A stretch of 64,000 nt of DNA from Hexactinellida sp. DTS-2022 (taxonomy: Eukaryota; Porifera; Hexactinellida). Location: assembly GCA_028753945.1 (NCBI GenBank), contig JAPNXP010000018.1, positions 992,001 to 1,056,000 of the forward strand. The letters are read 5' to 3'. Positions 1-57,065 of this stretch are shown here, piece after piece; position 1 is the stretch's first letter, and each line of letters opens with the position of its first letter. Both the position numbers and the translations under genes were made by a program. Under the pieces are notes generated by a model, which worked only from the letters and a program-made list of their open reading frames with translations, did not search any database and was not told where the DNA came from.

Positions 1-56
1 AAGATTGAGAAGGAATCGATTCGCAGTAAATTAACCCAATTAGTTATACGACAAAC

Positions 57-3000
57 CTGATGCAGGGCAACATAGTTTCTCTGAACTGATTCTCTACCAG
101 ATGGTAGTTGAGAGTTATCATTTTAATTAGAGTAAAGAATAGTCCGTTCGGGGGTGCCTTACTCTCACTGCTCTTCATAACTAGAAACAATAACCTCAAA
201 TCATTACGATATTATTTAAACTAGTGTTATATCAGTTCCACAGAGCAACACAGTTATTAGCCAGTCCCACTATAATCCTATTATTGACACAGCAGAGTCC
301 AGTGATGGGCTGGTCTGGCCCAGAGAGATTATGCGTTCCTCCGAGTCTCACTGCTACCGTGACGTCACTGTTGCGCTCCATTTGTTCCTCGAAGACTAAG
401 GGGAGGATCCGTATAACGCCCCCCTTCATGGCAGTGACGAGAGAGCAGGAGCTGGGCATAAAGTCGAAAGCGGAGAAGTCACAAGCCACCCTGAACAGAA
501 CTGTCGGTTCGAGTTCTATCATCTCGCTGCTCAGCCGCCACACTTCGGCGTCGATGTCGAACTTCCAAAGCAGCACGTAGCTCTCCGTCTCCTCCTTAGA
601 GGCCACTACGTCATCTCTCACGAACACCAGTCGCTCTATGGTACTGTGGTGGAACTTGCTGCCGGCTAGCTGCACTGAGAAGGGGGGCCCTGTCTTGCGG
701 GACCGCTTCTCCTTAGAGAGATTGCTCCTGTCGACCTCCCAGGCCCTCACCCCGTGTTCGTAGCCCGTCAGCAGCCAGTCCCCCCGCGGGGAGAACGCTA
801 TGGCTCTCAGCTCGCCGGATATCTTCAGCTGGAGCAGGAATCTGTCCTGCACGCGTTTGAACCGCCCCCTGTCGGTCCGCATGTCGCTCAGCCTGAGGTA
901 TCCGTCCCCCGCGATGCTGGCCACCCAGCTGTTCTCCGCTGGGTGCGCCAGCAGCTGCGCCACGGGCCCCTCGTGCACGGGCATGGGGGGACCGCACTGG
1001 AAGTCCGCTAGGCTCACGGGGTACAGCTGGCCCAGGGAGCTCCCGAGCAGGACCAGCCCGCTGCACTCCGTAACGCAGAGGAACGTGTCGCCAGCTGTCT
1101 CGTACTCGGCGTACAGCTCTCGGGCTACGGGGTCTATGACGAGGAGCTTATTCGCGGCTACGCAGAGCAGGTGGGGCGGGGCGGAGGTGCACATGTGGAT
1201 CCCGTGTCTGGGGGGCAGCTCTAGCTCGGGGTCAGCTGGCCCCAACTGGTAGACACCCTGGATAGGGAACTGGGAAGAGGACTTCCTGGAAGGCGCCTGT
1301 TTTGTACGACTCATGACCAAGAAATGAAATATTAACAGAAAGCGATGAGTGTAGAGTATATTTCGTATTCAGATGTTCCGGTTTCCCAATAAATCCATTA
1401 AAATTAAATTAAATCAATTAAATTACTATTCAACAACGTGCCTGTTAGAGATAGATTGACTGCATAGTCCAAATGGTCCTTGCAGATTAGCTCCATCATA
1501 ATCTCGTATATCGACTTCACGGTGGGAGAGAGCTCAGTCGGATTACAAAGCTATAACAAGAACTTTATAAATACAAATGCTATAGCAATCGATAGATAAT
1601 ACACACGTACAACTTTGCACCGATTGATACATTCCTTTGTTGCAGTCAGAATGTTAGTTATGAAGTCCTGAGAGACGAACAGAACGTCTACAGTCACATT
1701 CCTGACGGTCTCCCTTCTGGGCCGGTACCCGCCGCTGGGCGTGGTGTTAGCCTTCTTCTGCATGCCGGTGGAGTCGAAGAGAGCCTTGTAATACTCCTCC
1801 AACTCAGTCTTGCCCTTAGTCCTGAAGTTTTGAATCTCCTCTCTGAGTACAAGCATTAGTGCGTGTGTAAAATCAACAGACTAGCATAGTTAATAAACAT
1901 ACTCGGCATATTTGTGTAGGTAGTCATGGAAGAGAGATTTGATCTGTTTAGTCGCAGTTGGATAATCTTGAATCATTTCGTACTCAACGAGCTTGAGTCC
2001 CAACCGTGTTGCCCTAATAAATAGTTATAATACAGACAAGAGAAGTATAGTATTAGCTTATCATAATACAGTCAGGTCTACTTAAGGTGAACAATTTTTT
2101 GTCAGCTTAATATGAAAAACTTTTACTATGAACAAGCCCTATGGTCCTAATTTAACAGTTTGTTTGTAATAAGTTGAGTTCGCTTATTATGAAGTCTCTC
2201 TATTATGAACACATTTTTGGTCCCTTGAATGTTCATATTAAAATAACCTGACTGTATAGTATAATACTACTTACTTGTCATAGAGGTCAGACAGTTTGGA
2301 CAGGTACTCATCAATATCTGTATCCTTGTTGATGTCTTTCAGCTTTTCTCTTACGTGTGTCTAAATATGAAATATGTGTAATAACATAGTTTGGTAACAT
2401 AATTTGGTATTGGCTCTCTCACTTACCTTAATTATTTTATCAAATACTGCAGCGACAAATGCAGCTGTTACTTGTTCTGGATTATCGAATGTTTCGATAA
2501 TTATTTTTTGAGTCTAAAATAAACAACTTGGGTTACAAAACAGTCAAATTACTATTTATAATAAAGCCTAATTCGAGATTCTCTATCCAACTGTCTTACG
2601 CTTAATTAATAAATATTAAATAAATCTCAAAAAGTAAACATTTCTAAAATGCTACGGCTAGTACACAATGAGTACAGCTAGCTGATTCTGCTACCAATTT
2701 AACAAACATTTGTTGTACTGATTGGAATGTGTTTGAAAGAATCATAAATTAGAATACAATCAATGAAAGCTTAGCGTAGATGGCTGGATTACTCATATTC
2801 TGATTAAATTAGAAATGAATATCTAGCCCTAGCCGTGGAGAGTAACCCTGTAGCTTATCATTGACTGACAGAATCGCTAATTCTACTTTTTTTACAAGCT
2901 ATCTCTTCCACAGCCTCCTGGCTCTCTGTCAGGGGCGGTTCCTTCTTTTCGGACAAAAGTTCCTCGCTCGGTCTCCTGTGTGAGAGAGGCCGCTTTACCT

Positions 3001-6000
3001 GTGGACAGGGCTCGCTGCCCTCTCGAGGCGCGGGGCTGTGGGAAGGCAGGTCGGACGCATCGACTGAGCTGGGCTCGTCAACAGCTGGCTCCGGAGATCT
3101 GGAGGTAGCAGCGAGCTCCTTGTGGACAGTACAGTTGAAGATTCGAGTTTTCAGAGACGAGTAGAAGTTTCCCACGTCCCTCTTCTCGCCCTGGACCAGC
3201 ACAACGCGAATGCCCTCCTCCCGGAGATTAGCCGACAGCTTAACTGAGTTGGGGTTGGAGAGCTCGCAGAGCATCTCAGACCAGACGGGACTATTCAGCA
3301 GCACTAGTTGGTTGCCGTAGGCGCGGCATATTATCCGAGACTTGTGGTCCTCCTCAATGTCCTGATTCAGATGCAGCATGTTCCTGCCCTTGTTGTGCCA
3401 GGTCTTATTGCTGGAGTCGAACACGTACAGCTTGCAGGACATCTCCACGAGCACCTTCTCCCCCTCCTCCCCATTGAACACCTTCTGCACGGGCAGGGAG
3501 CTGATGAGAGGCTTGTTGCTCTCGCTGGGTATGAGCCCCTCCTGGAGGGTGGCCTTGGCGTCCTGACTTGAGGGCTGACTAGCATCCGACTCGTGAATGA
3601 CAACTCTACTCTCGATCTTCTGGCCGAACACGTAGAGCTTAGGCTCGGTCTGCGTTTGAGGTTCTTCGGTAGTGTTTAGCAGCGGGACCTTAGTGTCTGC
3701 CAGAGGCATACTGGGAACCTCTTTCGTATTAGCTGCCGGGTCAGTCGCGGACTGATCGCCTAGGATCGGAAATGTCTCAGAAGCACTCGTGGCATCAAGT
3801 TTCAGGAAGGAGAATGCCTGACTTTCGTTGTTAATCGCTTTGCTATTAGTCGAGTTAGCGCCAGAGTATAGAGTGCCAGTCGGTTTTATGGCTGAAGCTT
3901 TGAAGTTGAAAAAATTATGTTTTGTCAAGTTAGGTGCATCTGGAGACTCGTGCTTTGGGGAGGTAGACATGTATTTAAGCTACGATATAACTCTATAGTT
4001 TGAAAGAGTATAAACATTATTAACTGAGTATTGGGTTGAAGTCGGATAATCATTCAAAATAAATGCATAACACAACTGGCCAATAGTTTTGAATGCTACA
4101 TATTCTTATCTGCAACTTTGTACTAAATTCGAGGCTACCTGTCTCAATATATAGCGTAGAACATTGCAAATCTTTTCATAATGCATTTTTACCATTTTAT
4201 GTATTCTCAATCTAGAATTGATTTTAATAACATCTCATTTTCACAATTACACCATCATTAAATTATTCCTATCTAAAAGAGGCAATTCCACCACTATCAA
4301 TACATACATTCTACATTGAATATCAAATAATATTACCGACCACTACAGAACAGAACAAAACACAATATTCTACTATATATTGACACAGGTAAGGAAGTAT
4401 ATTTGAGATTTAAGACAAACTGTCTACATAGCAGTAAATAGCTCGGGCCATGCATATAGCACTAAATATATCAAGCACAGGTAAGGCGCCGGATGCTATC
4501 CCGGTATTCAACAATGTTGCCTGTCGCCATATACAGTTAGTAAGTAGAATTTGAGTGTTTAAAGTTGAACCAACCTTATGACACAGCTGTGTGACCTGGT
4601 TGAAGATGGTTATCTTAGTTTTGGGATCAATCTAATGAGCAAATAATGAGTGTCAATCGAAGGTATTACTAACTAGTAATTGACATATTTCTACTGATTA
4701 TTATTAAACGCAAATAAAACTGCAATGCAAATATTATATATTAATTTTGGGTCAACTTGTTAAAAGAACAAAACTCCCTTCTACACATAGTTCATTAATG
4801 CAGTAGTAACTATGTAAAAGCTTGCGGGATGCTGTAACATAATACCAGCCTTATCAACTCAGTATCTATAACTATGTATAAATTCTGCATATTAGTTGTT
4901 CAGCTAATAAAATGAGTAATAAAAAGATTAGCATTGAGGACAAGCGATAATCTCTATTTGTAGTTATTTCCATTTAATATTTTATAAATTTCAATAATGT
5001 ATGCCCGGTGTGTGTATATACGTGTCTATTTCAGGACAATAGGCTAATAATTCCCGAGATTATAAGCTCAAATTAACATTATTTACAAGGTATAATGCTA
5101 GTTTGAAATATATTAATTATACTTAAAAGTATTTCACTGATAGCAGACCTACCTTCGTAGCTTCATTTATAAAGTCTGTTATGCAAGTTTCATAACTCTA
5201 AAAGGAGAAATGTATGTTACGTAGGAAATAAAATCAATATAATTAAGAATAATATATGCATATGAAAATAAAATTATGAGATAAACACATAAATTAAGAA
5301 GCACTGTCTACTTGTGTATTACTTAATGTAACTTGAAGCAATAACATATATATTTGTGGACAAATCAAGAACAAAGTATATAAACACAATTGTCTAACTG
5401 TATTCATAATTTGCTAGCATTTGCATTTAATATGTCCTCCAGAAGAAATGTATTGTTGAAAGTTATAATCTTGGGAGATTCCGGGGTGGGAAAGACCTCG
5501 CTTATGAACCAGTACGTGAAGAAGAAGTTTACAACAAAGTATAAAGCCACGATAGGAGCCGACTTCCTAAACAAAGAAGTGGTTATAGATAACCGCATAG
5601 TGACCCTTCAGATCTGGGACACGGCTGGACAGGAGCGCTTCCAGTCGCTGGGCGTGGCTTTCTATCGCGGAGCCGATTGCTGCATACTCGTGTATGACGT
5701 CACACTACCAAGCTCATTTAAGAATCTCGAATCTTGGAGAGATGACTTTTTGATTCAGGCCAGCCCCAGGTACCCAGAAAAGCTCCCATTCGCGGTGCTG
5801 GGAAACAAAGTAGACCTGGAAAACCGAGGCGTGACAGCCAGACGGGCGCAAGCGTGGTGTGACTCTAAAAACAACACACCCTACTTCGAGACCAGCGCGA
5901 AAGAAGGAATAAATGTGGAACAAGCTTTCGAAGCTATCGCGCGAAACGCGTTAGAACAAGAGGAGCCGAACGGAGGAATCGTTGTAGAGTCAAACGTTGA

Positions 6001-9000
6001 GCTTAAGCAAGCCAAGACTAAGTCGGGGTGCTGTTCATAATACCTACTTTAATTTAAGAATGGTAATACTATATCCTACGTCTGATAGAGAGAACAGAGG
6101 CACCCGCATGTAATTGGAAATGTTATGTACCTAGTAAGATCTTACAGTGCTATGAAATACTATTTGACAAATATTTTAAATCAACATAATTTAACTTACA
6201 ATCAGTATTACGTATTGATGAGTTAATTATAGAGGTATGAACCTTAAGTTCCAGAGATGCTTTGGGAAAGCTAAAATTTAGCAAATATGGTCTTAGGAAA
6301 CAATAATTAATTAATTAATTTAGTCAATCCAATTACAGCTAATGTACTTGAAGTGCTCAATGATTTGTACGTTCTACATTTCTGTACAAGTAATATAAAC
6401 AAAGTATCCTCCCACTTGATAAATAATGCATATCTACAGACAAATATCTTGGCCAACTTACGTATTAAGCAGTGACCCTACACTGGAGAAAATCGATCTT
6501 TCATTTCAATATTAACTATAATTCAACAAAACTGATAATTACACGTAGTACATTTGTAATTAACTAGTAGGTTCGATTGATTGCGGATTGATTGTAGTTG
6601 AATGGTGAAAACTTCAAACAGAACAGTTCGACGGGAGATTGAATATAGGTGGCGTTGTAGAATTCCTTCCTGTGCATTCCATACCGACACCCCAGTAACG
6701 GAATTAACGGCAGCATCAGTAGAATGAGCAACGCTAGTTTCACTATTAGACTTCTCCATTTTAGGTGATTCATCCCGTTTATTGTAGACAAGTAGCAGGG
6801 CATCTCTGTGTGGTGAGGAATCCTGTTCCCATCAACTAGCGACGTCAACTCATTATCGGATTGGGGGGCAGAGCACGCAAATTTAAACAAAATAAACGTT
6901 ATAACCACACACAGGACTGTTCGAGTCATATATCCTGAAACTATTCCGGTCCAATACCCGAATGGTTTGTCCGTCAAAAAGTAGGCAAGAAGAATAGCCA
7001 ATGGAAAACTGACACAGAAAAACAATAGGGTGAATAGACCATTTATTTGCTGTTTCCTTAACCCATTTAAGACCGCCTGGAATAGTATTAACAGCCCCTC
7101 AAAGGGATGATAAGCTGCCAGCAGAAACAGTATGTTTGACAGACCCGATGATACTCTGTCGTCAGATGAGAATACCTTTCCCCAAATCTGGTTGCCACCT
7201 GCCAGCAGCACTGATTGAGAGAGAGTTAGGAGAACAGTCACACACAAACTGCCGCAAATTATCTTATTTATAGTGTTCCTCTGGTGATAAATTCCCAGCT
7301 TGGAGATACGAATGGAAGTCGCCAGTGAAAGAGACATGCAGCTGATCGTAATGACAGAATTGATAGAAATAGCAACTACGTGAATACCAATGTCTACCAC
7401 AGGTTGATACGATATCACTCCTAGGATGAAGGCTCCAGAATGTATACTAACTATCTCCAACTGATTCACCAGTAACAACGGCATTCCATAGCAAGTGTAC
7501 TCAAACCAGCGCTGCCAAGCTTCTAGCGTTAGCCCGCACCAGATCCGCTTCCATAGCTTTTTAGCACTGCGTAGGTAGATACAGTGTGCAGTAGCAATAA
7601 AGTAGAAAGCCACAACCGGTCCCAATGCGAATGCAATCACACCAATGTTAGTGAAATAAGCGAGTGGGTATATAACAGCGATTTCTAGCAGGTTAGCGAA
7701 CAGGAATATGAAGAGAGAAGGCAGCATCACTTCCTGCAGCTGTAGCGTCTTAACAACAGCTGTTGACATGCAGAGGGCAGGCAGGATGGCAGTGTACACC
7801 AGCACGTACTGTCCCGCGATTGCTGCTACCTCTGTCGGCTGTCTCAACAGGACGAGGATGTTCTCCGTGTTCAGCCATACAAACGCAATGGGGAACATGA
7901 AGAATGTGTTAACAAGGAAACTGCGCTGCAGCAACAGACCAGTGTACTTGTTTCTGCCAATAACGTTACTCCTGCTGAACAGCCTGTCCACAGCTGAGGT
8001 GAGGGTTATGAGAGGGTAATATCCGGTTATGTTAATGAAGGCCTGAGACAGAGCTACTGCGGCTAGAGATGTGCTCTGATCCGCTACCTGCCCTGCGAAT
8101 ATTAACGGTATTATCCCAATTGTCTCTGTACACAGGGCTGTGATGTATATGGGAGCAGACAGCCGGAAAAACACGCATATTTCGTTCAAGAGTGGCATAG
8201 CAATAGTACGATGATCACTTTATAATAGTATCCACTCAATTGATCATTCTATTCAATGCAAAGACAGGAATTTATCTTAGTTATTAAACGCATAATATTG
8301 CCTAGGAGAGATTCTTATACTTATTAAACGCATAATATTGCCTAGGAGAGATTCTTATACTTAGTCTAGTGTTATAAGCTGTACAATACACACAGCCATA
8401 CGACTTGAAGCCTGCCATCCAGTTAAGAAGCAACATCAAGCACATAGTCAATAGAAAGTAGGTAATTAGAATAGACTAATTATGAATATAAAGATAACAG
8501 ATTACATAGTAACTGAATACCTTCTGGAATGGAGCGAGGCTCTGTCCACACTCACGCATGCGCGCAGTGTTATTCTGTCCGTGAGCGCGAGAAAACTCCT
8601 GCAATAGGCGTCTCTCAGTCTCTCGCGATTTCGCTACAAAGTAGAGCTATTATAGAACTCAATACTAGGATTAACTGAGAGGGTTTACCTTCGATCCTAC
8701 ACCTCACTTCAGCGTACCTAGTGAGTGGGATATAGAGTATCAATCGATTGAAATAATGAATAAATGGATTAATTAAAACAGCGTTTACTTATCAGGAAGA
8801 TCAGTAGCGAATGAACTCAGAATGTGCACCACTTTCGCTGCCTCGAACACCTAATAATTATAAGAGATTAAACGGAGCCGCGCCGATAACAAAGAAGAGT
8901 ATAATTGCCTGCGCACTGTTCGATACTGCGAAAAGTTTGGTTTCATTCTCCTCATTCCTTTGGAAAATGTTGAAATACTTGATCAGCTGCAGAGCTTCTT

Positions 9001-10490
9001 CTGTTCTGTACTTTTTCCTATTCGCGGTTTCCAGCTGATCTCCCAGGTGAACAACCTTGGCAGCCATGGTTCGAACCTTTAACTCGAGGTGTTCGTGAGT
9101 GCGAAAAGTATCCTAGAACACGAGTATACAATGATTACAAATTAAAAATATTAAATATATATACGTATATATCAGTTAGCCATAGAAGACCTGGAATTCG
9201 ACTCTCTGTTGTTTCAGGTTATCTTCATGCTCCTTAGCAATGATGTAACACTGCTTCTCTACCTTATCCACTTTCTTCTGATTTTTATTTTTCAGCTGAT
9301 TCAATACGTCGATGTTCTCTTGGAATGATTTCAACAGGGCCTGTATGAATACGTCATCAGCCATTATTCAATACCAAACAAGGACAAACTCACATCAGGG
9401 CTAAATTCTTCAGGTTTTTTTAGAGGTCCGAGGTTAACGTTAATATCCACTCTGGCCAACCTCTCCACGTATTCCTTATCATCGAAGTCTCCCTAAACAC
9501 AGCTGATAAAATCTAGCTGTTTCGTGTTCATATACTAAACTGAATTGATACAAAATCCGTAGTGTATTTATTTATCTAGTAGTAATTGGATGGATAAATA
9601 TGAAAAAAATTAGGAAGTTAGAAATGATTTAGAATTCTAAAGTGGTTTATTAGGGAAGGTGGCTCATCAAAGAAATGTTCAATATCTTCGATTTCCATCA
9701 CACCAGCCTTCCTCAGTCCCTCAACGAATCTCAGTTTCTGCTTGACAGCCCATGGTTTGGTTGCAGACTTCATCTGGTAGGGAGTTACACCCACATAGAC
9801 ACTCGATTTAAGCTGTGCAAACGATTCAAGCAGTTTCCTATCGCTGATCCATATTTCTGCTGTCCCATTGTGTCCGCCGTCTAGCCAGTAGAACTCCCTG
9901 AGTCTGGATAGGAAGAGAGCTATTCTCTCGTCTTGAGGAGCTGTGCTAATCTCGTATATCATTTGGTTTAACACGATACAGCCCTTACTGAACCCAACAA
10001 CAGATATCTCTTCAATGCCCCCTGGGATTTGTTGTTCCTTGCATAGTCTGTCGAAACAGACGGATAGAGAAGCAAGGCTTTTGGGGAGAGAAGAATAAGC
10101 CGGATCCCCGTGGTCATTCGTCCTGTCAACCAGAGCGTCGTAGCAAGCATAGGTGCTCAAGTGCAAACGGGAAGGCTTGCAGAGACATATGACACGATCC
10201 GGAAATCTGTTGGCTAATACACTGAGTGTGTTCTCATAAGACCAGGTGGAGAACTCGTGGGACTCGGAAGCTTTCATGGCAACCTCAGTGTCCTGACAAT
10301 CCCCGGGAAAGAAGAACAGCAGCTTTTTCAGGAAGGACCAGCCTGTTTGCACTACTTTACTGTGGACTATTACCTACAATAAAATCAAAACTCCACTACC
10401 TACAAAGCTAGGATTATCGGTGACGTAACAAGGATATTACAATAATGTTCTCACCTCGAAATCTTTCAATGCGATTGTTGCTGTTGCCAT
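57..10490 (-). CDS. EXOC5: Exocyst complex component 5 (Sec10), 3'-truncated by window edge
   Basis: Sec10 is a subunit of the octameric exocyst, which tethers secretory vesicles to the plasma membrane. Coding exons read on the minus strand: 10455-10490 (ATG, tentative), 9394-9492, 9191-9340, 8927-9112, 8789-8850, 8689-8717 (29-nt microexon), 8521-8633, 5153-5197, 4575-4631, 2427-2513, 2275-2360, 1903-2013, 1614-1842, 1442-1550 and 57-180. All junction phases agree. The translated blocks follow the animal Sec10 order: EYVERL near the N terminus, [36 protein letters not shown] and [11 protein letters not shown]. About the last third of the protein lies beyond base 1. The donor at 1441/1440 is GC rather than GT. 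The introns hold LRWD1-like, RanBP3, Rab7, MATE and C2orf69-like genes. The family call is firm; the first exon is less certain because C2orf69 also needs it. Confidence 0.88.
232..1320 (-). CDS. LRWD1/ORCA-like WD40 protein without the LRR half
   Basis: This single-exon ORF of 362 aa begins at the ATG at 1320; an alternative ATG two codons in gives MSRTKQ. It reads as a series of WD40 blades, with motifs such as LSDM, GVRAWEV, VLLWKF and a terminal CVALWN. Segment order and several blocks (GDTFLCV, the [10 protein letters not shown] stretch, [11 protein letters not shown]) resemble the C-terminal WD domain of LRWD1/ORCA, which stabilises the origin recognition complex on chromatin. The leucine-rich-repeat half of that family is absent. 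The gene lies wholly inside an EXOC5 intron (181-1441) on the same strand. Its stop codon is about 50 bp from the EXOC5 acceptor. A generic WD40 protein is the alternative reading. Confidence 0.6.
   Translation of the reverse strand: MVMSRTKQAPSRKSSSQFPIQGVYQLGPADPELELPPRHGIHMCTSAPPHLLCVAANKLLVIDPVARELYAEYETAGDTFLCVTECSGLVLLGSSLGQLYPVSLADFQCGPPMPVHEGPVAQLLAHPAENSWVASIAGDGYLRLSDMRTDRGRFKRVQDRFLLQLKISGELRAIAFSPRGDWLLTGYEHGVRAWEVDRSNLSKEKRSRKTGPPFSVQLAGSKFHHSTIERLVFVRDDVVASKEETESYVLLWKFDIDAEVWRLSSEMIELEPTVLFRVACDFSAFDFMPSSCSLVTAMKGGVIRILPLVFEEQMERNSDVTVAVRLGGTHNLSGPDQPITGLCCVNNRIIVGLANNCVALWN
2069..2254. mobile_element. MITE family A, copy in EXOC5 intron
   Basis: This copy has cagtcaggtctacttaagg at the left and aataacctgactg at the right, with TA flanks. 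The interior shares tatgaacaagccctatggtcc and cttattatgaagtctctct-type blocks with the copies at 50813 and 56171. It lies between two EXOC5 exons. Confidence 0.85.
2858..3970 (-). CDS. RANBP3: Ran-binding protein 3, intronless
   Basis: This 370-aa single-exon protein has a Ran-binding domain at about residues 168-285, recognisable from [19 protein letters not shown], then [17 protein letters not shown], then [19 protein letters not shown]. The domain is most like RanBP3, the CRM1 export cofactor that binds RanGTP in the nucleus. The N-terminal 160 residues are Ser/Thr-rich and low in complexity. The C terminus is acidic/basic ([15 protein letters not shown], then ACKKSRIS), which could carry nuclear localisation. 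It lies in the EXOC5 intron between exons 4575-4631 and 2427-2513, on the host strand. Lack of introns inside a heavily split host suggests either retroposition or a lineage-wide habit of intronless genes. Confidence 0.85.
   Translation of the reverse strand: MSTSPKHESPDAPNLTKHNFFNFKASAIKPTGTLYSGANSTNSKAINNESQAFSFLKLDATSASETFPILGDQSATDPAANTKEVPSMPLADTKVPLLNTTEEPQTQTEPKLYVFGQKIESRVVIHESDASQPSSQDAKATLQEGLIPSESNKPLISSLPVQKVFNGEEGEKVLVEMSCKLYVFDSSNKTWHNKGRNMLHLNQDIEEDHKSRIICRAYGNQLVLLNSPVWSEMLCELSNPNSVKLSANLREEGIRVVLVQGEKRDVGNFYSSLKTRIFNCTVHKELAATSRSPEPAVDEPSSVDASDLPSHSPAPREGSEPCPQVKRPLSHRRPSEELLSEKKEPPLTESQEAVEEIACKKSRISDSVSQ
5432..6040 (+). CDS. RAB7: Rab7-type small GTPase
   Basis: This encodes late-endosome/lysosome Rab7, a membrane-traffic switch. 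The start chosen is ATG 5432 ([14 protein letters not shown]), which matches the Rab7 N terminus; an upstream in-frame ATG at 5390 would add 14 unrelated residues. All G motifs are intact: GDSGVGKT (P-loop), KATIGADF (switch I), WDTAGQERF (G3/switch II), GNKVD (G4) and ETSAK (G5). The AFYRGADCC and FLIQASPR segments are Rab7 signatures. The protein ends CCS, so it carries a dicysteine for geranylgeranylation. It is intronless and lies on the plus strand inside the 3.3-kb EXOC5 intron (5198-8520), antisense to the host and beside the MATE gene. Confidence 0.95.
6564..8198 (-). CDS. MATE-family (SLC47-like) multidrug/cation antiporter
   Basis: This is a 544-aa single-exon membrane protein with about 12-13 hydrophobic segments, from residues 10-35 through about 500. 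The opening stretch ([20 protein letters not shown], then a [13 protein letters not shown] segment) has the layout of the MATE/SLC47 fold, in which two six-helix bundles export organic cations in exchange for protons or sodium. Further matches are the loop around [18 protein letters not shown] and the [22 protein letters not shown] repeat half. A long C-terminal tail precedes a final hydrophobic helix, as in animal SLC47 proteins. It lies in the same EXOC5 intron as Rab7, on the host strand. Substrate and exact subfamily cannot be read from the sequence. Confidence 0.8.
   Translation of the reverse strand: MPLLNEICVFFRLSAPIYITALCTETIGIIPLIFAGQVADQSTSLAAVALSQAFINITGYYPLITLTSAVDRLFSRSNVIGRNKYTGLLLQRSFLVNTFFMFPIAFVWLNTENILVLLRQPTEVAAIAGQYVLVYTAILPALCMSTAVVKTLQLQEVMLPSLFIFLFANLLEIAVIYPLAYFTNIGVIAFALGPVVAFYFIATAHCIYLRSAKKLWKRIWCGLTLEAWQRWFEYTCYGMPLLLVNQLEIVSIHSGAFILGVISYQPVVDIGIHVVAISINSVITISCMSLSLATSIRISKLGIYHQRNTINKIICGSLCVTVLLTLSQSVLLAGGNQIWGKVFSSDDRVSSGLSNILFLLAAYHPFEGLLILFQAVLNGLRKQQINGLFTLLFFCVSFPLAILLAYFLTDKPFGYWTGIVSGYMTRTVLCVVITFILFKFACSAPQSDNELTSLVDGNRIPHHTEMPCYLSTINGMNHLKWRSLIVKLALLILLMLPLIPLLGCRYGMHRKEFYNATYIQSPVELFCLKFSPFNYNQSAINRTY
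8281..8360. repeat. Perfect 40-bp tandem duplication
   Basis: A 40-base unit beginning ttattaaacgcataatattg occurs twice head to tail, at 8281-8320 and 8321-8360, with no mismatch. It lies about 80 bp upstream of the MATE start codon, inside the EXOC5 intron. Confidence 0.95.
9618..10373 (-). CDS. C2ORF69: C2orf69 homologue (main exon)
   Basis: The exon 9618-10373 starts after an acceptor and reads [12 protein letters not shown], then [10 protein letters not shown], and ends NHFRILNHF followed by a stop. Conserved family blocks are the FFPGD motif, a [16 protein letters not shown] segment, the nucleophile-elbow-like [25 protein letters not shown] and the terminal [11 protein letters not shown]2orf69 in humans is a mitochondrial alpha/beta-hydrolase-like protein whose loss causes a multisystem disease. 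No ATG precedes FFPGD within the exon. The only phase-0 ATG exon seen upstream is 10455-10490, which also fits EXOC5. The gene is thus nested in EXOC5 intron 1 and may be an alternative splice product from the same first exon. Confidence 0.85.
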   Translation of the reverse strand, partial: VIVHSKVVQTGWSFLKKLLFFFPGDCQDTEVAMKASESHEFSTWSYENTLSVLANRFPDRVICLCKPSRLHLSTYACYDALVDRTNDHGDPAYSSLPKSLASLSVCFDRLCKEQQIPGGIEEISVVGFSKGCIVLNQMIYEISTAPQDERIALFLSRLREFYWLDGGHNGTAEIWISDRKLLESFAQLKSSVYVGVTPYQMKSATKPWAVKQKLRFVEGLRKAGVMEIEDIEHFFDEPPSLINHFRILNHF

Positions 10491-10700: not shown

Positions 10701-13643
10701 TTAAAACTTCCAAACGGTTACATTCCTATCAGCAGATGCAGTAACCACGACCTGCATATCTAGGTTAACAGATATAGCAGTGATCGCTGACTGGTGTGCG
10801 TCTCTCTTCGTGAGTGTGTGCGTGGCGCTGAGAGAGAGGAGAGAGAGCGTGCCACTGGCCCCGCCACACAAAATGAACTCTCCGTTCCACCACATGGAGG
10901 TGCAGTGCTCCCCTGGGGTCCGGGTGGCCAACACCGGGAGACCTTCCGTAACCGAGTACACGTGCACCATCCCGTCCTCGGAGCAGACAGCGAGGGCCTT
11001 GCTGTCGGGACTGAACAGACAGGAGCAGACAGACCTGTCAGACACTTTCTTCTCGGCTATCTTCTCCATGGACTGCAGCTCCCACAGACTGATGCTCCCA
11101 TCCGCACACCCGGACACAACCAGGGTCCCCGCGGCGTCTACGTGCACGCTGGTCAGCTCGCAGTCGTGGTCCAGGTCCCCGAGCATCTGAGGGGGGCAGA
11201 TCGGCCCCGCCCCCTTGCTGGGCGTGTAATGCCACACCTGCGATACAACAACATTAAGCTAGCACGCATAGTGTATACAGTAGGTACCTTTACAGAGGTG
11301 TCCCAGGAGCCAGTGGCGAGGATGTTGCTGCTCCAGGAGAGACAGGTGACCGAGCTGTCGTGTGCCCGCATGCTGTGCACTACGTTAGCGTACTCCACCG
11401 AGTAGAAGTACAGGTTGTTGTCCCAGCAGCCGACCAGCACCGTGTCCTCGTTGGGCATGACCAGACAGGAGGAGAGCGCCATGCTCGAGAGCGCCGCGCT
11501 GCGGGTCTGCTGCTGGCTCGTGAGCGAGAACAGACGCAGGGTGTCTTTGGAGACAGACACGATTGAGTTCTGCTTGGGGAGAGTGCATAGCGCGGTCATG
11601 CTCTCCTTGTGCAGTTTGTATGAAATCTCGAATGTGAGTTGAGAGAGCCCCTCCCAGTCGGAGGGGGGCAGGGGGGGCGGGGGAGGAGAGGGCAGGGCAG
11701 AGTTGTTCTTAGAAGGAGATGCCTTGGGTGCCTGAAAGTATGAGTTAGTAGATAGCTTGCATACGTGAGGCTCAATGAACAGCTGAGTGGGGGTTTGTCC
11801 GAACTCCATAATCTGAATTTTTAGCGAGTTCTGCTTGATGGGGTCGCTGACCGGATCGACATCAACTGCCCCCTCGTAAGTGATGTAATGGAAGAGATTG
11901 TCAGCCCTCACGGCCTCCTCGCCCCGCTGCTTGCACCCGAACACGAGGTCTATCCACTGGTGCAGCCGTCCGGCCACGTGCTCGCTCTCCAGCGCCTCGC
12001 GCAGCCGAGCCGTGAACTCCCGCGCGTCCCTGGCCCAGGGCGGCAGCTGCACGTCGCTGACCTTAGTCCCCGAGTCCCTAACGCCCAGCTCCAGCTGAGC
12101 CTCGTTAAGCAGGAACTCCCCGGGGGGCACGTAGAACTCGGGGATGAGCTCCCTCACGTCTGAGGGGCCAGTCAGGGCGTGCTGCCACGTCTCGGCAATG
12201 CTGTGGAACATCCTGTTAGCGTAATCGAACCTGCCGCCCTAAGGAATTGAGTATAAGTCAGTACTGTATGTATTGTGTACCAAGCAGTATAGCTACCTGC
12301 AGACAGAGGAGGTACTCCGGGGCTATTCGCACCAGGAAGTGTAGGACGTAGGCCGGAGCGCTGTAGTGGGTCCCGTAGAGGTACTTGGGAGAGGGCATCT
12401 CTTTGTAGCGCTGCTTAACCATGGATAGCTTCTCGTGATTCAAGGCTCCGATTGGCTTTGATAGATCTCTGTAGACAGAGGGGTCTTTCAGGTCCAGCTG
12501 TTTTCCGCTGTAGTTGGTGATCACCCAAGGGAGCACCGGGTACTGCGTGATGTCATTGAAGCTCCGGTCCGCCATGAAGTTGAGGAACATGAGATACTCA
12601 AAGTTGGACAGCTCCTTACAGTGCCACTTGTTCGTCATATCTGAGAGGGTGGGTAGGGCCTCCAGCTGTGTGTCCGCTTGCTCTAGAATGAGTTTGTAGA
12701 GGTGGTCCCGGGATAGGTTAGTTTCCAGCGCCATAAACAGACTCGTGTCTACAGATAACAAGTGTCAACAGAGCCCAATATCAACTGTAGTATATAGGCA
12801 CCTTTCTTCGTGAATAGCTCTATTCCCACGTGCGTGAGGAGGTACCTACGCTTCACCACGAGTCTCAGCTCGGACAGCTTGACGCACATGACAGGCTCCG
12901 CGTATATGTTGTTGAGAGGTTGGAAGTAGAGACAGCTGTTGGTGAGAGCCACCCGGCCCGGGTTCTCCAGCATGGGACTCACGTGCAGCCCCGCCTTCTC
13001 GTAGACAATCTTCTCGAAGAGGTCCGAGAGCCACATGCTCTGGAAACGAATGTGGTCAAACTGCTCGTGAGTCAGTCTCAGCGTCTCTTGTATCCTCTTT
13101 TCTAACAGAGCAGATAAGAATAGCTATTTATACCCGAGAGGGAGTACCTTGTGGATAGTGCCATATTGAGTAGAGTCTGTGTATCTTTGGCAGCACAGCT
13201 GTTATGTCCTGGTAGAGCAGCTGGAAGAGGTACCCCTCCTGTTTCTTTACCAGCTCGTACGGGCCTATGTTGTTCCCCTCCAGCAGCAGCAGCTTCTCCG
13301 AGGCGCGCACGTACACGCAGGGCTGCGCGCTGCCCCTAAGAGCGCGTCCGTTCCACTGGGAGAGCGTGTCGCAGAACCGGTAGGGGATCTTGATGAGCGG
13401 AGAGAGCGAGTCCTGTGGGACAAACAGGACCGTCTCCGAGCAGAGCTTGAGGCGGCCCAGCTGCTTGTGCTTAAGCATCTCCTCCTCGGTGCGCGCCTCG
13501 GGGTAGTAAATAACCGCGAAATCCTCGAAATATACCTCTCCGAAGTTGAGGTGAATGAGAGAGAAGCGGTCCGTGTTGGAGGTGAGGACCGAGTTGAACT
13601 GGAGAGGGGTGTAGTTGTGTTGGAGGAAGTGCAGCCAGTCCAT
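10701..13643 (-). CDS. NSMAF: FAN: neutral sphingomyelinase activation-associated factor (BEACH-WD40)
   Basis: Exons 13148-13643, 12802-13101, 12297-12748, 11288-12238 and 10701-11237 join in frame to 911 aa, close to the human 917. The order is a GRAM/PH-like N terminus (FSLIHLNFGEVYFEDFAV); then the BEACH domain with ADRSFNDITQYPVLPWVI, DLSKPIGALN, a YGTHYSAPAYVLHFLVRIAP segment, ALESEHVAGRLHQWIDLVFG and FGQTPTQLF; then about five WD40 repeats ending VTVWKF. In mammals FAN couples the p55 TNF receptor to neutral sphingomyelinase and affects lysosome size. Introns are only 46, 53, 58 and 50 nt. A proline/serine insert (SPPPPPLPPS region) separates BEACH from the WD domain. The assignment is firm. 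Confidence 0.95.
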
Positions 13644-29741: not shown

Positions 29742-32225
29742 CTAAATATACCAACATTCCTGTGGAAATGCGGGGAAGTCACCAAAGTTAGGTTCCCAGT
29801 TGAAGAAACTAAATAAAATAAATAACAATTACATCAAGTAGACCTAAGTTGATTAATTCATTGAATAATAGCCATTAATTATTAGAGATATCTTATATGT
29901 AGACCGTCTAGAAATAGACCAGGTTTTATTCCCTATACATTAGTATTACCCATAAAAAGCAGGGCAAGTGGTCTACAGAATTTATAGACGGTCTACAAAT
30001 TTTTGGCTTATTTGTATGGGCTTTTATAGACCGTCTATTTCTAGACGGTCTACATATAAGGATGCTCTAATTATTATTTCAGTCAAGTTTGCTTACTGTG
30101 AACAATCTTTGTCTGCTTAATTAAAATGAAAAACTTTTATTCTTAACAAGCCCTATGGTCCCAATTTAACAACTTACATACGTAAGGTTTGTATTAATTA
30201 AGCAGCTGAGTATTTAGAAGTATCTCTATATGAATACAATTTTTCTTCCCTTGAGTTCAAAATAAAAACCTGACAGTAATTCAAAAATTATTCACATTTG
30301 AATTAGTATTCAGAATCAAATAAGCCAACTAGTCAGTGAATATTCAACCATGGTGCTGATCAAATAAGGACTCGTAGGCTGCGGATAATTAAAAAATATT
30401 GACCCAAAATTTTTGTGATCGACTAAGAATATCGCCAATCGCTATATAGGCAAATTCCTAACTGGAAGAGAAAACATGCGGCATTGGCAATGACAAGAGG
30501 TTTAAAATATAGTTACATACTTGAATTCTTCAACAATCTCAAGTCTATGGTAACGATCCCTCCTTATATCCGTCACCTTTACCGGATAACACTTTATCGA
30601 AGATACTGTCATAATAATAAATCTTTCCTCTAGATACATAATAAAATAAAATAAATAGATATGCAAATCAATGTTAAACTAACAACCAAATATCAAAAAC
30701 TGGAAACAACACTTACCTCAGGTAAATATATTTTTGATAAAACCGAACTTCAAATAAAATATTCGGAACAAACAAAGTTATTACATTAAAGTATTTTATC
30801 GTAAACAGCAGGGTCTTTAAATTTGTACAAATTACACAGGAACTGAATTTTTTCTATTTTTGTACTTATTGGATAATTGAGATCAGTTACCAGTTGTAAA
30901 GGAATATCTGCAAATCTTTGCCAAAAGTCCGTCGTCGTGTTTTGGATACTTCGATCCGAGGTATATATTCCCTTGACAAGTGAAAATGTTAGGAACACCC
31001 GGTTTAATATAGGCATCCGATTCATGCATCTCAAATTTGTGACAATGAGCGGTACCATCTGCGGTTTTATACCAGTCAAATCTTGTTCTTGCAGTGATCT
31101 AGACAAATGTATTGTAATGTATGTAGTGGTTATTATATATACAATTTAATTTCTGTATTAAAATATTATATATTTAGAACGTACTTTGAGTGTTACATTT
31201 CCATTTACAACCATCTTGTAATCGTCGAAAAAGTAAAAAGCTCTAAACTTGTTGGTGGTGTAAGTGCCAGGACCAGTGTGTCGGTAAATGTCTCCTATAT
31301 TGACCCTCCTGTGTGTTGAATCTTCAAAGTAGTCTTCCCCATCAACTCGCTCTCGCCGCTCAGGATCATGCTACATGTAAATATATTGTTAATAACGGTC
31401 AATGGGTGAATCATGGAATATCTGGTCAGGGTATATACTAATGTATTTCAAATGGAGTACACTCATATCTCTCAGATACGGTCACCACCCTCAACCGGAC
31501 ACCTTTATTGGTGCAAGCGAAGCTAAATATGTATATATTATAACATTTAACCAATAATGTAGTATTATGACAAAATTCTATAACAAATTCATATCTTAAA
31601 TATTCCACAACCAGTTAAAAACATCAATTTTTGATTTCTGAATGAATATATAAAATATGGATTAGACACTTTGGGATTGTACATGTACCAGACATTGTAT
31701 TTCTGAGATTCGGGCAAATTCCCAGGTACGGTCCATACGGGCAACCACCGGACAACAGTGCTCGGATAAGGGAGGTTTTAGTGTAAATATATCGTAGATC
31801 AGGGTTTCTCAAACTCCCATATCTCCAATGAGAGCTTGCAATATGACCACACCTAGGCTTGATATAATATTGCAACATTTTCAAAGTATGATGAGAGTAG
31901 CCAGGCCAAAAAATGCTTGAAATATATGATCCGTGGTAATAAATAGTCCGATCGGGACCATTTATTTCGTGACAGGGTGCACTAAGGCAAATTAATAAAT
32001 TAATTCAACAACGTACCCATACATAGCTCCCACGGATTCTAATGTCAGAAACATCTAAAATAATATAGAGATAAACATTTGTATTTCATTAATAATGCGT
32101 TAATTAACAAGTATGTTGTATAACTCACTGCAGGTAGTTTCAACTGTTGGATCAACTAAATGAAGAGAAAAGTCTTTCGCAAAAGCGCTTAGTACAAGCA
32201 AAGAGAATACGATCAATATCTTCAT
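29742..32225 (-). CDS. Ependymin-related secreted protein A
   Basis: Exons 32129-32225, 32017-32054, 31185-31370, 30891-31098, 30521-30605 and 29742-29808 splice in frame to 226 aa. MKILIVFSLLVLSAFAK is a signal peptide. The mature chain shows the ependymin-related pattern: a beta-rich core (FRAFYFFDDYKMVV), CHKFEMHE, NIFTCQGNIYLGSKYP, GLLAKIC, a CYPV motif and a terminal FNWEPNFGDF ending near a last cysteine (PQECWYI). Ependymin-related proteins are secreted, calcium- and lipid-binding proteins with a BPI/LolA-like fold. The longest open frame over the fourth exon is a different, wrong frame. A second homologue (34367-35774) shares the intron phases 1,0,0,1,2. Two mobile elements sit in the last intron. 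Confidence 0.65.
29892..30060. mobile_element. Foldback element with perfect 28-bp terminal inverted repeats
   Basis: The left arm 29892-29919 (cttatatgtagaccgtctag and onward) is the exact reverse complement of the right arm 30033-30060. A third copy of the core, tagacggtctac, lies inside at about 29982-29994. An attagag/ctctaat pair outside both arms suggests that the true ends lie about 10 bp farther out. There is no ORF. It lies in the last intron of ependymin-related gene A. Confidence 0.8.
30080..30276. mobile_element. MITE family A, diverged copy
   Basis: The ends cagtcaagtttgctta and aaaacctgacag match the family A ends with several substitutions. The interior keeps tgaacaa, ctgcttaatt, caagccctatggtccc and tcccttga. 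A 3' TA flank is present; the 5' flank is tt rather than TA. Confidence 0.7.
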
Positions 32226-50778: not shown

Positions 50779-50812
50779 GCTGTGCAATAGTACAGTATTG
50801 GTAAATAAAGTA

Positions 50813-51005
50813 CAGTCAGGTTCTTTTATTATGAACATTCAAGGGACCAAAAATTGTGTTCATAATAGAGAGACTTCATAATAAGCGAACTCAACTTAAT
50901 ACAAACCCTATGTAAGTTGTTTAATTGGGGCCATAGGCTTGTTCATAATAAAAAATCTTCATATTAAGCAGACGAAATCTTGTTCATAATAAGCAGACCT
51001 GACTG
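50813..51005. mobile_element. MITE family A, complete copy
   Basis: Terminal inverted repeats cagtcaggttcttttattatg and cataataagcagacctgactg (20 or so bases each) are flanked by TA on both sides. The interior is palindrome-like with gttcataat and attatgaac segments and no ORF. It begins 34 bp upstream of the EPRS start codon and could affect that promoter. Confidence 0.85.
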
Positions 51006-51500
51006 TATTTGGTGCATGTCATTTTGTTTAGATCGTAATAGTGTACCAATTGTAAATGACTAATTAGCTCCCAAGGGTCGGTATAAGCAGATTATGAATT
51101 ACATTGCATTGTATCGCAAATTGTCAATGCTGATGGGTAAAGCGGTAGTCGTGTACGAACGAAACTGAAGGAATAATAGAGGAAGCTGCACATTTAGAAT
51201 TTATAGTTTTATTTGTCAAAATAATTAGTTCTGCACTTGTCGGAATGGGATTTCTAGGAGTGCACTCGTCAGAATCAGATTTCCAGAGGTCACAATAATG
51301 CTGACAATAAAAATCCGATGATGACAACTGCAAAACTGTAAAACCCGATTAAAACAAGTGTAGAAGTCTAAAAATTCGATTTTAACAGTAGCAGAACTAA
51401 AACATGTGTAGGCACCCTATAATAAGCTTTAATTAATACAATATGTCACAATGGGACAATGTACAGAACTTTGAAAGAGAAATATATACAGAGTAAAATA
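51006..51500. other. Spacer between EPRS-side MITE and SH2-array gene
   Basis: AT-rich. Contains short related segments (agaatcagatttcc, aaaaatccgatgatg, aaaacccgatta, aaaattcgatttt). No gene seen. Confidence 0.4.
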
Positions 51501-54386: not shown

Positions 54387-57065
54387 TCAAGAGTGTTGAA
54401 GGCAATTCTGTCCGTTGAAATGTTTCCCAACTGATCCGACAATACGAGACTTGCAGAAGTAACAGAGATGTGCGTTACACGACCAACAACGCACGTGGTT
54501 GTTGTTACCAATCTTAGCGTTCTTCTGACCACAAGAGGCACAGTTCAAATGGTTGGCCCCACCCTGTCTCTGGACTGCATTCTGCATTTGGTTGAAACGC
54601 TACAAAGTAAATATAAATACGTACGGATAAAGGAATAGAACATTTCGCTGCTTGTAAACTCACCTCTGGCACCACATTATCGTAACGATAAAAAGGTTCT
54701 CTTGCATTCCCTGGCACTTGAAATAGCTGACATTTCCCTCCATTGAAGTGTTCGTATCCTCCTGAAGAGCCACACAAGTAGCAGAAAGATGCCCCACACT
54801 GGTTACACGTCACCTTGTTACACCTATCAGGAAAATTATAAACTATTTTTTAAATATATTGTATTATACAATTATTTCAGCTTACCCTTCAAATTTATGA
54901 ATATGTATTTTACAATTCGGACAGACTTGAGATGTTGTTTTAAGAAAAGTTTCGGATTTTTTAATTTCTCTCAATTTGCCTGTTTTTTCTATAAATTCTT
55001 CTTTAGTAATTTTAGATTTCTGCAATTTATTAATTTCATTCTGAATAACTTGCTCTCCATCCAGACACTTGCCCTATTATTTAATTAGAACAGTTAGATT
55101 ATCATATAGTAATATGTAGTAACCTGCGTCATTACAATCAACAAACGTACCATATGCCAGGAGCTGTGGCAATCAGAGCAAAACACAAAGTAGCAGTCAG
55201 CACAGATAGCTTGTTTCTGTTTATAGTCGCACTCCGCTGGGTACTGACACCGGGGACAGTACACCATATCTTCCATCATGTCGAGAGTCCTCTAAGGAGA
55301 GAAGATATCAACCTGGCACATGTACAGAAATAAATTCGTGAGAGAACTCACTTCTAAAAGAAGTCTCTCCCAACGTTCAAACTCCTCGGGCCCTACGGCC
55401 TCTGCTACAATTTTCGGATGAATTAGCACATCACAGGACTTAGTGGGACATCTAGTGACAGGTAGACACAAGATAAATTCTAGTTCCTAACTCACAAAAT
55501 ATAAACTAACTTTAGATTCTGAACAGTGCCCTCTTTAACATGCATCTCGCAGTATCCATTAAGACACTCCTTGCAGTACATATGGGAACAGCCGTACAGT
55601 CTGTAGAACTCGCTTCCCTTCTTAGATTCGTAGCATATATCACAGAGCAGCTCTGATTCTAAGAACCTGGTTTCCTCCATCTCTTTTTCGTGCTGTATCA
55701 ACATAGGGATAACCAGATCGATAGATTTGAGGTCCCGCACTATGCGCGTGTCTGTGCTCGGATAGGTGTATTTCAGTGAAGTCAGCTCGAGCTCATTCTT
55801 ATCAGCTGTCAACACTGGCAGCATGCTGTTGCTCAGCCAGTCCAGCCAGGAGAAGAGAACTCCTAGAAAATACATACTTATATCAAATGCCACTGGAAGA
55901 TGGCAAAACTGGTAATATGCAACGAAGAAAAATTACTAAAAGAAAAGATTGAACAAATGTTTACGCATCGACAACGAAATCTTTGCGGATGCGCAAAGAA
56001 AAGTTTGCGAATTGGCGATGAAATCTTTGGGGATGCGAAAGAAAAGTTTGCACTACACCATTGACTTAATCTTATAGTATACTTGTATACTCCTTTTCTT
56101 TTCTTTTAAGTACAAAATTGTAAGCGCATTGATACATTTATATAATGCGCAAACAAATGTATTATTATTACAGTCAGGTCTGCTTATTATGAACAAGATT
56201 TCGTCTGCTTAATATGAAGATTTTTTATTATGAACAAATCCTACGGTCCAAATTTAATAACTTACATAGGGTTTGTATTAAGTTGAGTTCGCTTATTATG
56301 AAGTCTCTCTAATATAAACACAATTTTTGGTCCCTTGAATGTTCATAATAAAATAACCTGACTGTATTATTATTTCTTCAATAATTTCCGGTGGATTGGA
56401 TAAAAGCTGGGGTTCCATGCTGTACTAAAAGGTGAAATATATACCATAGCTAACTAATTAAGTTATAATAAACAACTTAATTTAACAAGTTTGTCTACAA
56501 TTGATAACTGCGAAAACCTAGCAAATAAAATAATTAAACTCGCCTACTCCTGGTGTCCAGAGGGCATCCAGCTCTGAGAATATCTCGTGGTAGTGCGAGT
56601 CGTCCATCCAGTCGCAGCTGATCTGGTAGCTGGGCGGGGAGTAGGAGGGGTAGTCGGAGGGGAGCAGCAGGTCGATGCGGACGCTGGAGAGAGACGAGAA
56701 TCGGTGCTCCGAGATAACAAAGTCAGGAGCAGCCGCACCCCCGGTACCGGGCTGTTCTTGGTTGAAGTAGAAGAACGCTTTGAAGGAGACAGCCGAGTCA
56801 AAGTTGACAGGGAGCTTAACCTAAGCAAACCAGGCTCATTATAAAGAAATAGTAACATACATCATTATACAACTTACGTACTTGTAATCTTTTCAGGTTC
56901 AGAGAGTTGGGACCCTCTGCGGGTGCTATTTCAGTAATGTCATTCTCGTAAATTGATTTCAGAGTTGCGATCTATAAGAATAAAGTTGTTAGTAGGGTGT
57001 TAAAAGAATATGTGTCGTATTATACATACCTCCTCCTCTTGCTCCTGGATTGTCTCTATGTCCAT
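54387..57065 (-). CDS. RNF14: RWD-RBR E3 ubiquitin ligase, RNF14-like
   Basis: Nine exons (57030-57065, 56882-56971, 56544-56820, 55511-55862, 55352-55451, 55151-55291, 54886-55073, 54664-54823, 54387-54599) join in frame to 518 aa. The RWD domain spans about 13-140 (IATLKSIYEND, then LLLPSDYPSYSPPSYQI). RING1 starts LLCDICYESKKGSEFY, then GCSHMYCKECL. The in-between-RING carries MVYCPRCQYP, then CADCYFVFCSDC. RING2 has VCPNCKIHIHKFEG and GCNKVTCNQCGASFCYLC, where the Cys after KVT is the likely catalytic residue. An extra C-terminal Cys cluster (LNCASCGQKNAK, then RCWSCNAHLCYFC and KHFNGQNC) lies beyond the human RNF14 layout. The third intron begins with GC rather than GT, and a MITE sits in it. 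RNF14 acts in ribosome-stall and crosslink quality control. Confidence 0.9.
56171..56364. mobile_element. MITE family A, complete copy in RNF14 intron
   Basis: The ends cagtcaggtctgcttattat and aataaaataacctgactg are inverted repeats flanked by TA. It is very similar in sequence to the copy at 50813 but in opposite orientation. The high match between the two copies suggests recent activity. Confidence 0.88.

Follow-up and report, generated by a model that had tools for sequence, protein, structure and literature searches.

A 64,000-nt stretch of the genome of the glass sponge Hexactinellida sp. DTS-2022 (the window; C10:992001-1056000, where C10 is contig 10 of the 18 that make up the 112.4-Mb genome) raises the question of whether a single EXOC5 gene can carry several unrelated protein-coding genes in its introns, and how the products of such a locus would be kept apart. 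The original prediction for this DNA was of fifteen EXOC5 exons between positions 57 and 10490, with five other genes nested among them. At the level of the sequence we could demonstrate an EXOC5 exon chain with intact phases, intact nested open reading frames (ORFs), four of six nested genes found once in the genome, and an orientation of four nests on the strand of the host and two antisense to it. We conclude that this is very probably one real EXOC5 gene, 12.6 kb long and with 21 exons, in which six unrelated genes fill the five large introns, within a compact, intron-poor genome of animal type.

The EXOC5 exon chain

All fifteen of the predicted exons were found on the minus strand with consistent phases, each boundary being fixed by a splice signal together with the reading frame, and when spliced they encode 507 residues in a single frame that matches the Sec10 profiles. 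The exons in the window are listed below in the order of transcription; a slash marks the splice junction.

10455..10490, minus strand: EXOC5 exon 1, with the start codon (ATG...GAG/GTGAGA); 12 residues; in phase 0 with both exon 2 and the C2orf69 exon
9394..9492, minus strand: EXOC5 exon 2, from splice signal and frame
9191..9340, minus strand: EXOC5 exon 3, from splice signal and frame
8927..9112, minus strand: EXOC5 exon 4, from splice signal and frame
8789..8850, minus strand: EXOC5 exon 5, from splice signal and frame
8689..8717, minus strand: EXOC5 exon 6, from splice signal and frame
8521..8633, minus strand: EXOC5 exon 7, from splice signal and frame
5153..5197, minus strand: EXOC5 exon 8, from splice signal and frame
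4575..4631, minus strand: EXOC5 exon 9, from splice signal and frame
2427..2513, minus strand: EXOC5 exon 10, from splice signal and frame
2275..2360, minus strand: EXOC5 exon 11, from splice signal and frame
1903..2013, minus strand: EXOC5 exon 12, from splice signal and frame
1614..1842, minus strand: EXOC5 exon 13, from splice signal and frame
1442..1550, minus strand: EXOC5 exon 14, with a GC donor (CAG/GCACGT)
57..180, minus strand: EXOC5 exon 15, from splice signal and frame

Thirteen of the 14 introns in the window are GT-AG, the exception being intron 14 with GC-AG; both of the GT donors near the GC donor of exon 14 lead to in-frame stops. The four introns that had been predicted to hold genes in the window (181-1441, 2514-4574, 5198-8520 and 9493-10454) have the same coordinates in our chain. 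The 507-residue product matched Pfam Sec10_HB (E = 1e-37, 130.5 bits) and Sec10_N (1.1e-15), and PDB chain 5h11_A aligned colinearly with its residues 196-507 (1.5e-41), spanning three of these four introns. The PDB entry carries the label 'Uncharacterized protein', and we take the chain to be zebrafish Sec10. The fourth gene-bearing intron in the window is intron 1, and the exon that bounds it, exon 1, falls outside any profile (Pfam matching begins at residue 44). Exon 1 presumably belongs to EXOC5, an assignment that draws partly on the human N-terminus and partly on the absence of another start.

A donor follows exon 15, and the gene therefore continues past the left edge of the window; a genome search placed the remaining Sec10 matches directly to the left of it. 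Exons 16-21 lie there (C10:989921-990925), which completes a gene of 20 introns and 710 residues at C10:989921-1002490. The complete product matched Sec10_HB at 1.7e-93 (314.7 bits, with the best stretch reaching to residue 704) and Sec10_N at 1.9e-15 from residue 44, placing it in the Sec10 family over its full length, with both the N-terminal and the helical-bundle domains. With EXOC5 as the query, a scan of viral contigs returned no relative.

The rival here is an assembly that interleaved two loci, or a series of EXOC5 exons that in fact belong to separate genes, and the original prediction had itself named such a join as something that would refute it. We consider this extremely improbable and rejected an assembly artefact: the 21 exons keep phase across all five gene-bearing interruptions, Sec10 homology runs over four of them, the whole locus lies on one 3.3-Mb contig, and a genome search with the C-terminal exons, which a divergent copy could escape, gave no second EXOC5 match. 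Nothing that we found spoke in favour of interleaving.

The genes inside the introns

The gene-bearing introns of EXOC5 are introns 1 (962 nt), 7 (3323 nt), 9 (2061 nt), 14 (1261 nt) and 15 (1131 nt). Every EXOC5 intron longer than 600 nt (five of five) thus contains a gene, and no nested gene was identified in the remaining 15, which measure 52-521 nt. The nested genes are as follows.

9618..10373, minus strand: C2orf69 coding exon with stop; EXOC5 intron 1 (9493-10454); Pfam C2orf69 1.2e-52
6564..8198, minus strand: MATE transporter, uninterrupted ORF; EXOC5 intron 7 (5198-8520); Pfam MatE 1.4e-20, PDB MATE1 1.3e-39
5432..6040, plus strand (antisense): Rab7, uninterrupted ORF; EXOC5 intron 7; PDB Rab-7 1.4e-95
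2858..3970, minus strand: RanBP3-like, uninterrupted ORF; EXOC5 intron 9 (2514-4574); Pfam Ran_BP1 3.5e-9, PDB RanBP3 7e-20
232..1314, minus strand: WD40 protein, LRWD1-like (weak), uninterrupted ORF; EXOC5 intron 14 (181-1441)
C10:991358-992008, plus strand (antisense): SWSAP1-like ORF of 216 aa, its last 8 bases being window positions 1..8; EXOC5 intron 15

The locus proved larger than had been claimed, with one EXOC5 gene that holds five unrelated genes in the window and a sixth beyond its edge. Uninterrupted ORFs had been described for four of the five genes in the window, three on the host strand and Rab7 antisense, and this description stood; the SWSAP1-like gene is the second antisense nest. 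Coding sequence of the six nested genes amounts to about 5.85 kb, compared with 2.13 kb for EXOC5 itself. Five complete ORFs lie within single introns (two in intron 7 and one each in introns 9, 14 and 15), and the sixth nest, C2orf69 in intron 1, appears to be without a start of its own.

Pfam and PDB matches bore out four of the five identities proposed for the window, namely Rab7 (assigned by Pfam to the Ras family), MATE, RanBP3 and C2orf69, the last of which belongs to PF10561 with 179.5 bits against a cut-off of 25. The fifth label, LRWD1, is weak. In Pfam this WD40 protein matched LRWD1 (5.5e-5) and THOC3 (8.6e-6), both below cut-off (22.7 bits against 30.7 for LRWD1), and in PDB LRWD1 (5.6e-4) ranked second, a WD40 chain named PkwA scoring 1.7e-5. 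The SWSAP1-like ORF was 33% identical to human SWSAP1 over 130 aa (E = 2e-8) in a single comparison against a presumed human SWSAP1 sequence; its only Pfam match was AAA at 0.1, and PDB gave nothing better than 0.84.

In the genome search, C2orf69 and the RanBP3-like, LRWD1-like and SWSAP1-like genes were each found once. Because these are the only copies found, the four are probably working genes, and with four of six nests found just once, dead retrocopies are an unlikely explanation of the nested set. Rab7 has a paralogue on the same contig (C10:1255380-1255994, 76% identical and also uninterrupted), and MatE is a large family in this genome (81 matching stretches), so a recent duplication of the nested Rab7 and MATE genes is possible. 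With C2orf69 as the query, a scan of genome contigs gave no relative. One match to C2orf69 on a viral contig (L001) covered 25 residues of a phage-like contig, the rest of the frame being unrelated by eye, and was taken as chance.

Repeats also occur within the introns, among them one short element in a small intron.

2064..2257, no strand: short terminal-inverted-repeat element (MITE-like) with TA flanks; EXOC5 intron 11 (261 nt)

This is one of four copies in the window of a repeat of ~200 bp (the others at 30070-30281, 50803-51009 and 56161-56375). The copies are 74-94% alike, and three of the four have CAGTCAGG/CCTGACTG ends and TA flanks, the fourth being more decayed. We counted at least 41 matches in the genome, with 40 of 2153 candidates scored, and we take the element to be a MITE of the Tc1/mariner type. 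A second inverted-repeat element, with ends CAGTGGAAGCCGCTTAATCGG, lies beside the SWSAP1-like gene in intron 15 (positions 5137-5315 of L004, the genomic stretch that takes in the part of EXOC5 left of the window). Additionally, a 40-bp unit is duplicated in tandem within intron 7 at window positions 8281-8363, with 2.1 exact copies (100% identity) that lie ~80 nt ahead of the MATE start.

On both sides EXOC5 is flanked by genes on its own strand. The upstream neighbour, ~210 bp away at window positions 10701-13643, is a gene that we take to be NSMAF/FAN-like. Downstream lies an uninterrupted gene of the iron-hydrogenase family (L004 2400-3821), presumably CIAO3-like, whose ATG is 115-155 bp past the EXOC5 stop. 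Positions 13839-60723 of the window hold many long uninterrupted genes, including Pfam matches to a POT transporter, Peroxin-3, NOG1, and GRIP-domain and NHL-repeat proteins, as well as MCM-like and glutaminyl-tRNA-synthetase-like genes recognized by eye. The style of the genome is intron-poor, with scattered intron-rich genes. No Rfam match reached the gathering threshold, and no tRNA was found.

The start of C2orf69

C2orf69, an alpha/beta-hydrolase-like mitochondrial protein, is probably not a self-contained single-exon gene at this locus. Its open frame starts at an AG acceptor (10374/10373). The first ATG in this frame, at 10277, lies inside the conserved domain, and none precedes the conserved FFFPGD segment. 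The residues that precede this ATG add 15.7 bits to the family match (63.6 vs 47.9); the stretch is therefore very likely translated and would need a start from an upstream exon. EXOC5 likewise reaches its second exon without a start: there is no Met in residues 2-110, an in-frame TAG abuts exon 2, and the one ATG in the interval from the C2orf69 stop to exon 2 reads into that TAG. The EXOC5 start should therefore lie upstream of C2orf69.

The donor of exon 1 is in phase with both EXOC5 exon 2 and the C2orf69 exon. Phase alone is weak evidence for a shared start exon, because 46 other routes also keep the frame among the 47 frame-compatible ATG exons that we enumerated for C2orf69. By splice score, the route from exon 1 (9.7) tied for best with one that starts inside the coding sequence of the neighbouring NSMAF-like gene, and the best route starting between that gene and EXOC5 scored 6.3. 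The C2orf69 acceptor scored 4.3, lower than 13 of the 14 EXOC5 acceptors (2.3-10.2) on which the acceptor matrix had been trained; when these were left out one at a time, which changes the matrix slightly, their scores ranged between -6.5 and 7.2, and 4.3 sits close to the middle of that range. A stronger AG (8.4) lies 26 nt upstream of the C2orf69 acceptor, at 10399, and is out of frame. The argument for a shared start would thus be that two ORFs lack a start, that a single start exon is available, and that its phase matches. On these grounds we lean toward the reading that a single coding start exon serves EXOC5 and C2orf69 alike, with the choice between an 81-nt and a 962-nt splice picking the product. 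Among the papers listed in a literature search, none treated EXOC5 and C2orf69 together.

Two other readings of the C2orf69 start have to be weighed. The gene could have its own intronic promoter and nothing in common with EXOC5; translation would then begin with ATG 10277 or, ahead of the PGD motif, with CTG or GTG as a non-AUG start codon. CTG and GTG codons do occur in the leader frame, and an untranslated first exon could be joined through the strong out-of-frame acceptor at 10399. However, a start at 10277 gives up ~16 bits of the family match, the FFFPGD segment included, and leaves the open frame next to the acceptor unexplained, and we regard an independent start as a doubtful, if serious, alternative. 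The other reading, which we rate as unlikely and a little below the previous one, is that the same-strand nests are expressed in an operon-like way by spliced-leader trans-splicing off the host pre-mRNA. A leader would be joined to an acceptor just 5' of each nested ATG, and C2orf69 would be capped by the leader, which would perhaps also supply its AUG. In a variant, the leader would give an AUG to EXOC5 exon 2 as well, so that exon 1 would be unneeded by EXOC5 and C2orf69 would be an upstream neighbour and not a nest.

Leader trans-splicing does occur in glass sponges and ctenophores, according to excerpts of three papers (PMC10282587, PMC8527503, PMC7986045). Acceptor positions lend it some weight: at 13 of 20 hand-chosen gene starts across the window, no more than 20 nt separated the best acceptor-like AG from the ATG, against 5.9 (sd 2.0) expected from dinucleotide shuffles of the 80-nt upstream stretch. 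This excess appeared in all nine of the settings used (the smallest being 14 vs 10.2, sd 2.1), and the AG lies 9 nt upstream of the ATG in the RanBP3-like gene and 18 nt upstream in EXOC5. Gene by gene, however, just two of the 20 starts fell below 0.05 (mononucleotide shuffles), two others (the LRWD1-like gene and a 28-kb ORF) offer no AG that could be scored in the 80 nt upstream, and a purine-rich start context could account for part of the enrichment. Nor was a leader gene identified with the sole leader sought, that of Hormiphora, which gave no match in the genome as two overlapping 31-base parts when 3 mismatches at most were allowed; the control for this search, a repeat pattern, gave 123 matches. 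This makes Hormiphora an improbable source of the DNA. Hexactinellids and ctenophores had yielded no reports of operons, according to PMC7986045.

Proposed working of the locus and its known counterparts

The original prediction assumed that the same-strand nests bring complete poly(A) signals into the host transcript, which goes beyond what is found. AATAAA stands close to the stop in one of the four, C2orf69 (46 nt past the stop), and was not found within 200 nt of the stop of the MATE, RanBP3-like or LRWD1-like genes. The LRWD1-like stop sits 51 nt before the next EXOC5 exon, exon 15, and the only ATTAAA within 200 nt of that stop falls inside this exon. We dropped poly(A) signals as an argument: of 20 hand-chosen stops, some of which are unchecked ORF ends, six have AATAAA or ATTAAA no more than 200 nt away.

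In the arrangement that we propose, the EXOC5 pre-mRNA would be transcribed straight through the nests and each gene-bearing intron excised whole, intronic poly(A) signals being disregarded as long as the EXOC5 intron gets spliced. The five nests besides C2orf69 would be separate transcription units, with their own promoters or with spliced-leader acceptors. For C2orf69 itself we propose, with moderate confidence, a role as an alternative last exon and not an independent gene. From exon 1, splicing would either remove 81 nt and join the C2orf69 exon, behind whose stop an AATAAA stands, or remove 962 nt and join EXOC5 exon 2, and one start exon would thereby serve two unrelated proteins. Expression of all seven genes at the locus is something we infer from their DNA.

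Nesting of this kind is familiar in other animal genomes. Excerpts of PMC10282587 put nested genes typically at 5-10% of genes; several genomes have almost none, and the glass sponge Aphrocallistes vastus has 12.4%. They add that such counts depend on the annotation method and that ~10% nested exonic bases seems normal over several phyla. The same excerpts describe the A. vastus genome as having 80 Mb, 19,578 genes, 12,409 single-exon transcripts, 2,432 nested genes, short introns and leader trans-splicing. In its single-exon genes, short introns and nests it is alike in style to the window and fits well; its genome is 80 Mb vs 112 Mb for the genome studied here, and EXOC5 goes unmentioned in the main text of that paper. 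Oopsacas minuta has 1.59 introns per gene (PMC10280926, in excerpt). For the ctenophore Hormiphora californensis, 2,357 nested genes in 1,654 hosts are given in excerpts of PMC8527503, which show unrelated intronic genes on the same strand and antisense and several per host, as in EXOC5. A figure legend there counts four nests in one host, compared with six in the 12.6-kb host described here. For Drosophila the count is 1,651 nested genes distributed over 865 hosts, with 727 of the nests on the same strand, and host transcripts there ignore intronic poly(A) signals unless the donor is deleted (excerpts of PMC3890989). The xl6-nop5 pair described in those excerpts resembles the EXOC5 nests in having a same-strand nest in a spliced intron whose poly(A) signal the host ignores; that case was shown by experiment, whereas the EXOC5 locus is known from sequence alone.

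Counterparts also exist for the proposed start. Among human pairs with a shared first exon, 24 of which are given in excerpts of PMC2568002, CPNE1/RBM12 is similar to EXOC5/C2orf69 in that unrelated proteins have one start region; the shared exon of CPNE1/RBM12 is untranslated, whereas that of EXOC5/C2orf69 would be coding and contain the start codon. At the cholinergic locus, VAChT lies in the first intron of ChAT as C2orf69 lies in EXOC5 intron 1 (PMC3053374, in excerpt). In H13/Mcts2, too, one gene is nested in an intron of another, and the conflict is over intronic polyadenylation; unlike EXOC5, this is an imprinted mammalian pair with a single nest (excerpts of PMC13309782). With many nests described in Drosophila, in a ctenophore (four in one host) and in a glass sponge, in the excerpts cited above, the word 'remarkable', which had been applied to five nests in one host, is too strong for the kind of arrangement. 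Our literature search did not find a published maximum of nests per host. The locus is an unusually dense instance of an arrangement already described, in nested genes, same-strand nests and shared first exons alike, and the shared coding start exon would be its less usual part.

With nested coding sequence that outweighs that of the host, the locus offers a strong natural test case for the way in which splicing, promoters and the choice of poly(A) site separate seven genes in 12.6 kb. It also carries a risk of misannotation, since a gene finder that forbids nesting could shorten or lose C2orf69. Should EXOC5 and C2orf69 indeed share their start exon, two unrelated housekeeping proteins would depend on a single promoter and start codon, which would couple their levels, and the host would combine a two-product start with five more nests.
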